DNA of 64,000 nt from Hymenobacter edaphi (GTDB taxonomy: Bacteria; Bacteroidota; Bacteroidia; Cytophagales; Hymenobacteraceae), in assembly GCF_003258365.1 (NCBI RefSeq), contig NZ_QHKM01000004.1, forward strand, positions 186,001-250,000, in the 5' to 3' direction. Position numbers and translations under genes: made by a program. Below the pieces are notes generated by a model. The model saw only the letters and a program-made list of their open reading frames with translations. It made no database searches and was not told the origin of the DNA. Shown here one piece after another: positions 46,171-49,952 of the stretch. Every line of letters starts with the position of its first letter. The stretch's first letter is position 1.

Positions 46171-46425
46171 TTAGTTTTGGGTGCCGGGGCAGGCGCCCTG
46201 GGTGAAGCTCGTCACGCCGGCGTTGGTGGCCTGGCAGGGGTTGCTGTAGGTTTTGTTGTCGCAGCCGCACACCGGGTTGTACTCCATGGTGCACATAGCG
46301 TCCTTGCGAATCTTGCTCGGGTCGATGCAGTCGGCGGCGGTTTCGGTAGGGGCGGCGGTGCGCTGGCAGGCGCCGGTCAGCAGTAAGGCCAGCAGGGGGG
46401 CGGCCAGTAGCAGGCGGGTAGGCAT
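46171..46425 (-). CDS. Small lipoprotein with complete Kazal-type domain
   Basis: The 84-residue product has a lipoprotein signal ending LLLTGAC (Cys20) and a Kazal domain with six cysteines (ADCIDP, AMCTMEYNPVCGCDNKTYSNPC, TQGAC). It is a clear paralogue of the protein at 18859-19122, sharing TYSN.C and AGVTS. As a lipid-anchored protease inhibitor it could act in the envelope, but targets are unknown. The cupin gene follows by 9 bases, so they are co-transcribed. Confidence 0.85.
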   Translation of the reverse strand: MPTRLLLAAPLLALLLTGACQRTAAPTETAADCIDPSKIRKDAMCTMEYNPVCGCDNKTYSNPCQATNAGVTSFTQGACPGTQN

Positions 46426-46692: not shown

Positions 46693-47127
46693 ATGTCTTA
46701 CAACGAAGACAACAACACGGGCAAAGTCCTGCTGGCCCTGCTGGCCGGCGCCAGCGCTGGTATCGTAGCCGGTCTGCTCATCGCTCCCGATAAAGGCAGC
46801 GCCACCCGCGGCAACCTGAAAAACTACGCCGGCAAATACGGCGACCAGCTCGGCGACCAGCTGAACAAGTTCGGCACCCAGCTCGACGGCTCTTTCAAAA
46901 GCCTCGTGGAGAAACTGGAAGACCTGGGCGTAACCGGCGCCGGCTCCAGCCTGAACCTGAAGGGCGACTGGGAACAGTCGAAAGGCAAGCTGAAGCAGCA
47001 GTACGCCCAACTCACCGACGAAGACCTGACCTACGCCGAAGGCCAGGGCGACGAGCTGGTGGGCCGCTTGCAGGAGAAGCTTGGCAAAGGCAAGCGCGAA
47101 ATCGTGAAGCTGCTCAACGACCTGTAG
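46693..47127 (+). CDS. YtxH-like membrane protein (copy 1)
   Basis: The 144-residue protein has one membrane segment (VLLALLAGASAGIVAGLLIAP, residues about 12-32), then KGSATRGNLKNYAGKYGDQL and a mostly helical, amphipathic cytoplasmic part; the C-terminal region GDWEQSKGKLKQQYAQLTDEDL resembles the CsbD-like stress motif. So this looks like a YtxH segment joined to a CsbD-like piece, both found in stress-induced proteins. The start MSYNEDNN is fixed by the ATG at 46693. A strong terminator follows. Confidence 0.88.
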   Translation: MSYNEDNNTGKVLLALLAGASAGIVAGLLIAPDKGSATRGNLKNYAGKYGDQLGDQLNKFGTQLDGSFKSLVEKLEDLGVTGAGSSLNLKGDWEQSKGKLKQQYAQLTDEDLTYAEGQGDELVGRLQEKLGKGKREIVKLLNDL

Positions 47128-47185: not shown

Positions 47186-47191
47186 TTGTGA

Positions 47192-47216
47192 TAACCTTCG
47201 CTTCACATTATCGTTA
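47192..47216 (+). promoter_or_regulatory. ECF-like promoter motif before ytxH2
   Basis: TAACCTTC at 47192 and TCGTTA ending at 47216, with 16 bases between AAC and CGTT, as in the two downstream non-coding units. The leader to the ATG at 47279 would be about 55 bases. Confidence 0.55.
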
Positions 47217-47278: not shown

Positions 47279-47722
47279 ATGAAAGACAACGGCGGCAAAG
47301 TAATCCTCGCCCTGCTGGCCGGTGCCAGCGCCGGCATTGTGGCTGGCCTGCTGATGGCTCCCGAAACCGGCACGGCTACCCGCGAAACCTGGGGCAAGTC
47401 GCTCGGCAAGTTCGGCGACGACCTGAGCAAGCTCCTGCAGGACGGTCTGGCCAAGCTCGACGCCCTCAAGGGCGGGGCCTCCGGCAGCGAAGGCGACACC
47501 AACACGGACCGCTCCGGCGCCGAGGACGCCCTGGCCGGCTTGGGCGACACCGGTAAAAGCAGCGGCAGCAAAGCAGGTGGCGGACGCAAGTCAGCAGCCG
47601 GCTCCGGTGCCAACGCCGGCACCGTCGACGGCCCCGATTCTGCTTCCACCGCTACCTACTCGCAGGGCTCCGGCAGCTCCGATACCGGCGGCACCACTGG
47701 CGGCAGCGGGGTGGGCAGCTAA
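47279..47722 (+). CDS. YtxH-like membrane protein (copy 2)
   Basis: The 147-residue protein has the same N-terminal membrane segment as copy 1 (VILALLAGASAGIVAGLLMAP) and the following TGTATRETWGKSLGKFGDDL. After residue 70 it differs: a Gly/Ser/Ala-rich, probably disordered tail (GKSSGSKAGGGRKSAAGSG, SGSSDTGGTTGGSGVGS) replaces the CsbD-like part. The pair is a tandem duplication that diverged in its C-terminal half. YtxH proteins are stress-induced in Firmicutes; the exact role is unknown. Confidence 0.85.
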   Translation: MKDNGGKVILALLAGASAGIVAGLLMAPETGTATRETWGKSLGKFGDDLSKLLQDGLAKLDALKGGASGSEGDTNTDRSGAEDALAGLGDTGKSSGSKAGGGRKSAAGSGANAGTVDGPDSASTATYSQGSGSSDTGGTTGGSGVGS

Positions 47723-47743
47723 CGAAAAAAATCAGCGGCCGCG

Positions 47744-47768
47744 TAACCTTTCGGTAACACCGCCGTTA
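47744..47768 (+). promoter_or_regulatory. ECF-like promoter motif of non-coding unit 1
   Basis: TAACCTTT with AAC at 47745-47747 and CGTT at 47764-47767, spacer 16 bases. Confidence 0.55.
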
Positions 47769-47774
47769 ATGAAG

Positions 47775-47996
47775 GTAGAAATTGACTTAGAGAAGTCACT
47801 GCCTTGACATTCTGAAGCAAAATTGCCAACAGGTTGAACTTCTGCACGGATTGGTCAAACAACCGTATCAGCAAAATCAGCCTGGTTTTTTCCGGTAAGC
47901 TTCTTCAGAGCCTTTAAGCAGTTGAATTAGCTACAGACAATTTCCAAAGAAAGGCCTCGTACCCGCTTAGACTGGTACGAGGCCTTTCGACGTTTG
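47775..47996 (+). ncRNA. Candidate small RNA, unit 1
   Basis: If transcription starts about 7 bases after the CGTT box, the RNA would be about 220 bases and end at the hairpin AAAGGCCTCGTACC / GGTACGAGGCCTTT (47950-47987). The middle (47819-47880) contains AAAATTGCC, CTTCTGCA, GGAT.TGGT, AAACAACC and GCAAAATC, which also occur in order in unit 2. A 12-codon frame (47769) is not conserved in unit 2. It is called an RNA because promoter, conserved core and end hairpin are kept while coding potential is not. Confidence 0.45.
47950..47987 (+). terminator. Hairpin ending unit 1
   Basis: A perfect 14-bp stem with a 10-base loop, followed by CGACGTTT, as in unit 2. Confidence 0.75.
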
Positions 47997-48052
47997 GGAG
48001 CCCAGCCCGCGGCGGGGCCCGCAGCACTTTCAAAAAATAATAGGGCAAGGCG

Positions 48053-48077
48053 TAACCTTCTGGTAACGCTGTCGTTA
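48053..48077 (+). promoter_or_regulatory. ECF-like promoter motif of non-coding unit 2
   Basis: TAACCTTC with AAC at 48054-48056 and CGTT at 48073-48076, spacer 16 bases. Confidence 0.55.
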
Positions 48078-48083
48078 AAGAAT

Positions 48084-48294
48084 ATATAATCGGTTTAAAA
48101 GAAAGTCGGATAGACGTTCCAAAGTAAAATTGCCGACCGTAGAGCTTCTGCAAGGATCTGGTAAAACAACCCTGTAGTAAAATCGTACGCGTCCATCGCA
48201 CATTTCTTTGGTTTGTACTGACTGGAATGGTTAACTGATTTTCAAAAGAAAGCCCCCCGTGCACCTTATTAGCACGAGGGGCTTTCGACGTTTA
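48084..48294 (+). ncRNA. Candidate small RNA, unit 2
   Basis: Homologue of unit 1, about 210 bases from the predicted start to the end of its hairpin. The core AAAATTGCC, GCTTCTGCA, GGATCTGGT, AAACAACC and TAAAATC (48126-48184) matches unit 1, while the parts before and after it have diverged. The end hairpin (48249-48285) has a different stem sequence but keeps its pairing and its CGACGTTT flank. Confidence 0.45.
48249..48285 (+). terminator. Hairpin ending unit 2
   Basis: AAAGCCCCCCGTGC pairs with GCACGAGGGGCTTT (13 of 14 positions) around ACCTTATTA. Confidence 0.75.
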
Positions 48295-48297
48295 GAT

Positions 48298-48329
48298 GGC
48301 TGGTCGTTCTGGCATCAGAACGACCAGCC
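48298..48329. terminator. Perfect hairpin between unit 2 and lysS
   Basis: GGCTGGTCGTTCTG pairs perfectly with CAGAACGACCAGCC around GCAT. It lies 10 bases past the lysS stop and may end that transcript, although no T-run follows. Its left half also occurs at 12500. Confidence 0.65.
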
Positions 48330-48339
48330 GTTTAGCTAT

Positions 48340-49902
48340 TTATTCCACCGGCTTCTCCGATTTCTCGGTTTTCTTCTCGGCCTGCTCCGGCTTCATCTGC
48401 GGGAAAAACAGTACGTCCTGAATGGAGTTGGAATTGGTCATGATCATCGACAGGCGGTCGATGCCGATACCCAGACCGGCCGTGGGGGGCATGCCGTACT
48501 CCAGAGCGCGCAGGAAGTCCTCGTCGAGCACCATAGCTTCGGTGTCGCCGCGCTTGCCCAGCTCCAACTGGTCTTCGAAGCGCTGGCGCTGATCGATGGG
48601 GTCGTTCAGCTCGGAGAAGGCGTTGCAGATTTCCTTGCCGTTGCAGATAGCCTCAAAACGCTCCACCAGGCCCGGCTTCGAGCGGTGCTTCTTGGCCAGC
48701 GGCGACATTTCCACCGGGTAGTCGGTGATGAACGTGGGCTGGATTAGCTTGGGCTCCACGTGCTCCCCGAAGATTTCGTCGATGATTTTGGCTTTGCCCA
48801 TGCTCGGCTCCAAGCCCACTTTCAGGTCCTTGGCGGCGGCGCGCAGCTCGTCTTCGCTCTTGCCGTCGATGTTGAAGCCGGTGTAGTGCTCGATGGCTTC
48901 GGCCATGGTGAAGCGCTTCCAGGGGCGTTGGAAGTTGATGACGTTCGGGCCGACCTGCACTTCGGTTTTGCCGTGCAGGGCCAGGGCCACGCGCTCCACC
49001 ATTTCCTCCACCAGGTCCATCATCCAGTAGTAATCCTTGTAGGCTACGTACAGCTCCATCTGGGTGAATTCCGGGTTGTGGAACCGCGACATACCCTCGT
49101 TGCGGAAGTCCTTCGAGAATTCGTACACCCCGTCGAAGCCGCCCACGATCAGGCGCTTCAGGTACAGCTCGTTGGCAATGCGCAGGTACAGCGTCATGTC
49201 CAGCGTGTTGTGGTGCGTCTTGAAGGGGCGCGCGGCGGCCCCGCCGTACAAGGGCTGCAGAATGGGCGTTTCCACCTCCAGGTAGCCTTTGTCGTTGAGG
49301 TAGTTGCGCATAGCCTGCACCAGGTGCGTGCGCTTCACGAAAGCGTCGCGCACGTGCGGGTTCACCACCAGGTCCACGTAGCGCTGGCGGTAGCGCTGTT
49401 CGGGGTCGGTGAAGGCGTCGTAGGTGATTTTCTCGCCCGTGGCCTCGTCCACGCGCTCCTTCACCACCGGCAGCGGGCGCAGGGCCTTGCTCAGCAGCGT
49501 GAAACCCGTCACGTGAATGGACGTTTCGCCCACCATGGTCTTGAACACGTGGCCCTTCACGCCCACGAAGTCGCCGAGGTCCACCAGCTTCTTGAAGACG
49601 GTATTGTAGAGCTCCTTGTCTTCGCCGGGGCAGATTTCGTCGCGGTTGATGTAGAGCTGAATGCGGCCCGAAGCGTCCTGCAGCTCGGCAAACGAGGCCT
49701 TGCCCTTCACGCGAATCGACATCAGGCGGCCGGCCAGGCTCACGTCCTGGAAGTTGTTCAGCTCGGGGTGATAGTTGTCGTGAATCTCCTGGGCGTAGAA
49801 GGTCACGTCGAACAGCTCCGACGGGTAGGGCTCGATGCCGAGCTTCTGCAGCTCGTCGAGCTTGTTGCGGCGAATGATTTCCTGTTCGCTAAGGTGGTGC
49901 AT
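48340..49902 (-). CDS. lysS: Lysyl-tRNA synthetase, class II
   Basis: The 520-residue enzyme has the OB-fold anticodon-binding domain near residues 50-150 ([20 protein letters not shown]), class II motif 2 ([16 protein letters not shown]) and motif 3 ([12 protein letters not shown]). It charges tRNA-Lys. The short C-terminal extension is Lys/Glu-rich ([13 protein letters not shown]). The ATG at 49902 gives the usual start [15 protein letters not shown] perfect TATCTTTG element is upstream. Confidence 0.97.
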
Positions 49903-49952
49903 GGCACGAGGCGTAAAAACAAGGCCCACAGCGGGCCGCGAAAGTCAAGCCG

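Follow-up and report, generated by a model that had tools for sequence, protein, structure and literature searches.

Tandem units of a predicted rod-shaped RNA gene family between ytxH and lysS in Hymenobacter edaphi

Genes and promoters at the locus

The window analyzed here is the whole stretch of 64,000 nucleotides of Hymenobacter edaphi, taken from contig NZ_QHKM01000004.1 (positions 186,001 to 250,000, forward strand) of assembly GCF_003258365.1. Two small-RNA gene units, both complete and each about 245 bases long, were located at 47741-47995 and 48050-48294, following two genes for YtxH-domain proteins and preceding lysS (Table 1). Each unit was composed of an ECF-sigma-like promoter, a core of approximately 165 nt, and an intrinsic terminator, and both units showed the promoter box, the core blocks in the same order, and an end hairpin that is itself followed by CGACGTTT. 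The units of RNA1 and RNA2 were alignable end to end with a mean column identity of 76%, and the direct repeats D1, D2, and D4 were shared between them at spacings of 309, 307, and 298, respectively. The first-pass annotation had described a tandem pair with promoter box, core, and end hairpin, and the alignment and repeats confirmed both this description and its coordinates. Two further features were observed nearby. A small protein with a Kazal-type inhibitor domain is encoded on the minus strand at 46171-46425, and its homologues are found beside ytxH genes in many relatives. A further hairpin, in which 20 pairs were counted, lies at 48292-48335, directly 3' of RNA2 and before the convergent lysS.

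Table 1. Genes and predicted features at the locus, in window coordinates
Feature	Position	Strand	Basis or remark
YtxH + CsbD domain protein gene	46693..47127	+	Pfam YtxH 1e-13, CsbD 1e-11; homologue adjoins most related units
ytxH promoter, ECF-like	47191..47216	+	TAACCTT-N13-CGTTA at 47192-47216; motif as before both RNAs
ytxH (second YtxH-domain protein)	47279..47722	+	Pfam YtxH 3.1e-9, just over cut-off
RNA1 promoter	47743..47769	+	GTAACCTT-N13-CGTTAA
RNA1 gene, ~215 nt	47775..47995	+	Start inferred from -10 box, end from terminator
RNA1 internal loop 1	5' strand 47817..47827 (GCAAAATTGCC); 3' strand 47892-47904	+	Placed by covarying helices
RNA1 internal loop 2	5' strand 47836..47843 (GAACTTCT); 3' strand 47871-47878 (GCAAAATC)	+	
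RNA1 intrinsic terminator hairpin	47949..47988	+	15-bp arms, 100% complementary
RNA2 promoter	48052..48078	+	GTAACCTT-N13-CGTTAA
RNA2 gene, ~208 nt	48083..48294	+	Both ends inferred
RNA2 internal loop 1	5' strand 48124..48134 (GTAAAATTGCC); 3' strand 48194-48207	+	Covarying helices
RNA2 internal loop 2	5' strand 48142..48149 (GAGCTTCT); 3' strand 48177-48184 (GTAAAATC)	+	
RNA2 intrinsic terminator hairpin	48248..48286	+	15-bp arms, 93% complementary
lysS (lysyl-tRNA synthetase), convergent conserved neighbour	48340..49929	-	Pfam tRNA-synt_2 4.6e-93

The boxes GTAACCTT and CGTTA, 13 bases apart, preceded both RNAs, and the motif was present as ATAACCTT before ytxH. The general consensus of ECF sigma promoters has AAC at -35 and CGT at -10, and by likeness to this consensus the promoters were regarded as ECF-like, with a putative cognate sigma factor. 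In the 6.04-Mb genome, TAACCTT-N13-CGTTA matched exactly three times, all at this locus (before ytxH, RNA1, and RNA2), while the reversed control had no match. When one mismatch was allowed in the window, three promoters were found versus 0.04 expected. A looser pattern yielded six matches in the genome, namely these three and three others, versus four for its reversed control. The pattern GTAACCTT-N(14-17)-CGTTA returned no match because the spacer is 13 nt, and a scan for sigma-70 promoters returned none on the strand of the units. Across eight genomes of the genus, 13 exact matches were obtained versus 4 in the control, with two genomes lacking any. The strict two-box promoter was present in 82 of 118 upstream regions, 70 of them with the 13-nt spacer, and the spacer sequence was variable; the strict pattern was missed in the remaining 36, of which 15 were inspected and found to be near variants. 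In the window, a second GTAAC lies 11 bases past the first in both RNA promoters (GTAACCTTTCGGTAAC; 47741-47760 and 48050-48069) and is absent in many relatives. An additional regulator may bind at this second GTAAC.

Fold, internal loops, and coding potential of the units

To describe the fold, all column pairs of a 48-unit alignment were scanned, and the helices were ranked by pairing and pair types. Helix ranks 1-5 and 7 corresponded to P2b, P3, P2, P4, and P1, and rank 6 was P2 in another register. In the 34-pair structure, 86.1% of the cells were paired compared with 71.9% in shuffles, and changes on both sides were found in 29 of the 34 modelled pairs. The covariation score was 0.496 versus 0.235 in shuffles, none of the 500 shuffles being as high, and in a control with the 3' partner slid by 1-3 columns the pairing was only 26-44%. 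A covariance model, R1, was built from the same 48 units; it matched RNA1 at 47774-47944 (82.5 bits) and RNA2 at 48082-48242 (156.6 bits), each unit being itself part of the model.

As the 34-pair structure was taken from the same alignment, the test was repeated without any structure on 119 distinct units, which were aligned by sequence alone and evaluated with our own model-free script. These units were the distinct sequences of a 79-unit and a 91-unit set, with two cut-off units (130 and 76 nt) excluded. The null comprised 60 tree-preserving alignments, in which the substitutions of a FastTree tree were replayed on random columns. Among the 12,246 column pairs, those at ranks 1-14 after tree correction were all within one nested rod, and eight pairs scored higher than any pair in the 60 null alignments, with tail-fit E values between 0.0001 and 0.046. 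Non-rod pairs were intermixed below rank 15, and the tree-corrected support was modest after the first eight pairs. In a tree-corrected run with 79 units, three pairs with E < 0.05 were found in the rod, and ranks 1-14 were again inside it. Comparison of the 119 distinct copies thus supports one long, rod-like predicted fold held by compensatory changes, with the covariation beyond phylogeny that marks a structured non-coding RNA. The first-pass annotation had named missing covariation in related genomes as evidence against its proposal; covariation was found, and it lay in the core, which that annotation could not fold and where it is decisive. Its central claim of duplicated structured non-coding RNA genes is supported by this core covariation together with the model-free, tree-corrected fold.

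Over 35 pairs, 3335 cells were Watson-Crick, 314 were G-U, 126 were A-C, and 361 were other combinations. As G-U cells exceeded A-C cells, the plus strand is predicted to be the RNA. Without its terminator, the core of RNA1 folded alone into the rod (z -4.08), with none of 200 shuffles as good, and that of RNA2 did so only moderately better than its shuffles (z -2.02, 7 of 200 as good). From the ends inward, the order is the closing stem P1 (AAYCGGCUU with AAGCCGRUU), an internal loop, P2, P2b, loop 1, P3, loop 2, P4, and an apical loop, UGGUYAAACAA, which is recurrent across units. Covariation was strongest in P2b, P4, P3, and P1, while P2 was weaker than the other helices.

The invariant bases were concentrated in two internal loops with a common motif, GCUU opposite UAAAA. 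In loop 1, the 5' strand reads GYAAAAUUGCC and the 3' strand CAUCGCAAGCUUCU or, alternatively, CAUCGCACAUUUCU; in loop 2, the 5' strand reads GAGCUUCU and the 3' strand GYAAAAUC. When each loop is traced from its neighbouring helix, the order 5'-GCUU-(helix)-UAAAA-3' is obtained both times, so that P3 is flanked by two copies of the motif in inverted orientation. Of the 119 units, 118 have GYAAAAT in both loops; GCTTC was found in 113 at loop 2 and in 77 at loop 1, the other 42 deviating at loop 1. The twin motif was spotted post hoc and is regarded as a candidate motif. The strands of loop 1 are 11-14 nt long, and UUGC/GCAA can close part of this loop; three of these pairs hold in 119 of 119 units, almost without variation.

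With respect to the 3' ends, a terminator stem of at least 12 bp followed all 119 cores compared with 4 of 119 shuffled tails. A cut-off of at least 8 bp was also passed by all 119 units but was non-discriminating, because 78 of 119 shuffled tails passed it as well. The differing terminator stems of the two units had been observed to pair nevertheless, and this pairing is real; as a sign of kept structure it carries no weight, as it is expected of any terminator. The longest ORF per unit had a median of 26 aa, with at least 40 aa in 15 of 119 units and a largest value of 66 aa, while in shuffled units the median was 31 aa, with at least 40 aa in 28 of 119 and a largest value of 71 aa. There was no conserved reading frame among the 119 units, the commonest start position being common to only 18. 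The earlier statement that the pair has no shared reading frame was borne out, as the ORFs are shorter than in shuffled sequence and no peptide is conserved. An intrinsic terminator of their own and the lack of a conserved ORF are features that the units have in common with ECF-sigma-dependent sRNAs.

Distribution of the family and sister units behind like promoters

When unit 2 was used as a blastn query, matches were obtained in all eight genomes of the genus, its own included, and in 71 of 150 genomes of the family, a count that includes a few short promoter-only or chance matches (e.g., in G041, G053, G057, and G120). Excluding its own genome, the best genus matches started at query position 16-17, in the promoter, in four genomes and at 54, in the core, in three, and all ended at 254-260, in the terminator. 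Among 84,980 genomes, one per species, the exact three-block core pattern was found in 67 DNA stretches, of which, by title, 64 were Hymenobacter, one was Solirubrum, one was a 'Cytophagales bacterium' MAG, and one was a 'Hymenobacteraceae bacterium' MAG. The viral contig collection contained no match to the core pattern, and a virus origin of the units was dropped. R1 was applied with stricter filters and 7-10 candidates scored per genome, settings under which weak relatives may escape. It gave matches in 37 of the 291 genomes searched in the order, which belong to 3 of 115 genera and to a single family, and in 4 of 395 genomes drawn from the whole phylum, again only in this family. The covariance search across Cytophagales proposed in the first-pass annotation therefore recovered relatives, but the family is narrower than the order. 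In its own genome, only two copies were found by R1, and blastn of the pair returned, besides the pair, only the terminator's own inverted repeat. Weak partial blast matches were seen in two genomes of genus g3 (L070 and L071); neither had an R1 match, and the match in L071 is inside a listed ORF.

The units were also compared with known RNA families. No Rfam 15 family reached its gathering score in the window, and permissive scans of the window units and other loci gave weak matches, all below gathering score. The strongest of these was a microRNA family (E 6.4e-9) at L068 5443-5528, outside the unit. Searches of the open-access literature, judged by titles and abstract starts, yielded no such RNA of Hymenobacter or Cytophagales. 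Within Rfam and these titles and abstract starts, the duplicated RNAs are undescribed for Hymenobacter and Cytophagales, in line with what had been supposed for the phylum.

Relatives occurred in Hymenobacter, Solirubrum, one further genus of the family, and two MAGs, nearly always between ytxH and lysS. Among 65 loci (L003-L067, several per genome in cases), a YtxH homologue was beside the unit in 64 and lysS in 63. Two genomes of genus g4 (L068 and L069) each have a single complete unit, promoter and terminator included, and the 6.5 kb examined there contain neither gene. As these units are away from ytxH and lysS, the RNA appears to be a gene of its own. The wider flanks of the two g4 loci align mutually with 81-87% identity over three stretches, and their immediate neighbours differ. 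Since the wider flanks align, the loci represent one alternative site, and relocation is seen in one genus only; at this alternative site, a purely cis role is excluded.

Among the 119 units, 34 loci were paired and 51 units were single, where single may reflect a cut end, the removal of identical rows, or a missed partner. In the tree, 26 'second' copies outside the window's genus formed their own group with a support of 0.84. Within the window's genus, to which loci were assigned partly manually, first copies were likewise apart from second copies in leaf order, a grouping that carries no support value. As the copies group apart, they look old and distinct, which suggests that the two copies are not redundant.

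Similar promoters were found beyond the rod RNA. GTAACCY-N14-CGTTAAA occurred at 106 places, in 87 of 200 genomes of the family, versus 13 for the reversed control. Twenty places were examined, 16 of them from genus g3, where R1 found none. By reading, a terminator-like hairpin closes a short stretch behind the promoter at 16 of the 20 places, ahead of any likely gene; at the other four (L261, L263, L266, and L269), the promoter is followed by an ORF. In g3, a terminator-ended unit of about 105 nt was found at nine loci (L250-L254, L262, L264, L265, and L268) and was nearly identical in several genomes, and another of about 85 nt (GAGTATGGCTAAAAGTTGAAAAT...) was found behind a like promoter at five loci (L255-L258 and L260). 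At L250, the unit of about 105 nt comes after an ORF that, by eye, resembles an RNA helicase.

In genus g6, the ytxH-lysS site is occupied by a conserved RNA-like unit, termed 'type II' (L072, minus strand, from 1636; L073, 1863-2110; L166-L175), whose promoter and terminator style is as in the Hymenobacter units and whose closing stem is similar to that of the rod RNA. Over nine aligned rows of g6 units, AAAATTGACC was present in five and GGTTAAGC in three of these, and AAAA was again opposite GCUU. A second unit, remote from the first and behind a promoter of this kind, was present in five g6 genomes (L196, L197, L198, L200, and L203), at a distance of approximately 145 kb in G041 and G053. 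When R1 was run with filters off on six g6 and two g3 loci, nothing convincing was obtained, the best E being 0.22 at a position away from the RNA. As the type II RNA was unrecognised by R1, common descent with the Hymenobacter RNA is not claimed, despite the shared promoter, place, and closing stem.

Proposed function and alternative explanations

As the comparison of copies demonstrates, the family consists of units of predicted promoter, core, and terminator, with a rod fold, invariant twin loops, and no conserved peptide. The explanation we favor, with a probability of roughly 0.55, is that the tandem units are two members of a family of free-standing structured RNA genes, which are ECF-driven and whose products bind protein in trans. 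Under envelope or general stress, an ECF-type sigma factor would activate ytxH along with the two RNAs, as suggested by the promoter form and the YtxH/CsbD company. Each RNA would act in trans, and the two mirror-placed loops would form a pseudo-twofold platform for a protein, probably a dimer or two copies, which the RNA would sequester or modulate. Binding of a protein is considered because the invariant bases are internal-loop bases and not a free seed. Our confidence is highest for ECF stress transcription, lower for trans action, and lowest for protein binding via the twin loops. The most likely function would accordingly be that of a protein-binding regulatory RNA made under stress. Protein-titrating RNAs of the CsrB/RsmY type carry GGA in hairpin loops. 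Compared at the level of this general description, the Hymenobacter RNA would likewise present repeated candidate protein sites in a structured RNA, but its motif is GCUU/UAAAA in internal loops.

The main rival to protein binding is a trans-acting base-pairing sRNA under an ECF sigma factor, in which the apical loop or the 5' tail would pair with mRNA starts and the rod would only stabilise the molecule. We regard this as possible but doubtful. Each unit has its own promoter and terminator, and the recurrent apical-loop sequence could be a pairing seed; however, the rod leaves little unpaired sequence, and most invariant positions are in the internal loops and not at the 5' end. The sigma-E sRNAs of enterobacteria, MicA and RybB, are small stand-alone genes with an ECF-type promoter and intrinsic terminators. 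By that general description, the Hymenobacter units are alike in all three respects, whereas their RNAs are far more structured and without an Rfam match, and their sigma factor, like any seed or chaperone dependence, would be putative. A closer comparison in the phylum is GibS of Bacteroides (RF04182), which is described as relatively unfolded, with a single-stranded 5' seed, and as pairing near start codons (PMC7366714). Like the units here, GibS is a Bacteroidetes sRNA encoded between genes, and it has a promoter and a terminator of its own (PMC7366714). Its pairing near start codons would fit the base-pairing alternative, but its relatively unfolded form with a 5' seed is the opposite of the rod RNA (PMC7366714). 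The one RF04182 match in our scans, from a g6 locus, did not rise above noise (E 4.1). Several Rfp RNAs of Flavobacterium psychrophilum have strong predicted structure, and Rfp11 and Rfp36 appear in sigma-motif promoter tables (PMC9723704); these Bacteroidetes RNAs, with strong structure and sigma-motif promoters, are likened to the present family by description only.

An unlikely alternative to the protein-binding RNA is a 6S-like RNA, in which the rod, with loop 1 as a central bubble, would bind RNA polymerase and could be the missing 6S of these bacteria. The long irregular rod of about 200 nt is indeed shared with 6S RNA (RF00013). Moreover, RF00013 matched none of 38 relatives, so their 6S RNA is either unrecognised or missing, while 11 of 61 genomes of the phylum were matched, one over the cut-off. 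However, no covariance-model match was obtained in either direction: RF00013 gave none in the window units up to E 10 or in six other loci up to E 5, and R1 gave nothing better than E 2.3 in four loci carrying 6S matches. 6S RNA binds RNA polymerase, templates pRNA, and has a large open central bubble that mimics an open promoter. Loop 1, with its strands of 11-14 nt, may be a bubble of this kind, but the almost invariant UUGC/GCAA pairs can close part of it. The family also differs in its invariant-sequence loops and its narrow distribution, with no R1 match in most genera of the order under the strict filters, unlike a housekeeping RNA.

Still less probable is a cis-acting element of ytxH or lysS, such as a 3' UTR, an attenuator, or a shared terminator region. 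The position between the two genes in nearly all loci and the relocation in a single genus agree with such an element. Against it stand the separate promoter and terminator of each copy, the convergent orientation of lysS, and the two g4 genomes, where an entire unit occurs and the examined stretch contains neither gene. Finally, a short conserved peptide or a DNA-level repeat mistaken for RNA is very improbable, for although the units are repeats and 15 of 119 have an ORF of at least 40 aa, the shorter-than-shuffled ORFs (median 26 vs 31 aa), the compensatory changes, and the bias of G-U over A-C argue against it.

Structured bacterial sRNAs are a known kind; what appears to be new is this family, together with its inverted pair of loops and its promoter company. 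Work on small RNAs in this phylum has covered only a few of them, and the results supply a further family with good support, whose fold lends itself to direct mutational tests. The shared promoter ties this RNA to genes for stress-protein domains (YtxH and CsbD) and to the short terminator-ended units in sister genera. Tentatively, GTAACCY-N14-CGTTAAA may mark a family-wide sigma regulon largely of small RNAs, driving different terminator-ended RNAs in each genus, of which that of Hymenobacter would be a pseudo-twofold-symmetric RNA with two inverted loops of a new motif docking a dimeric protein. Finding one sigma factor could thus open an RNA-based stress response, and the inverted twin loops offer a concrete prediction of how a protein may grip an RNA rod.
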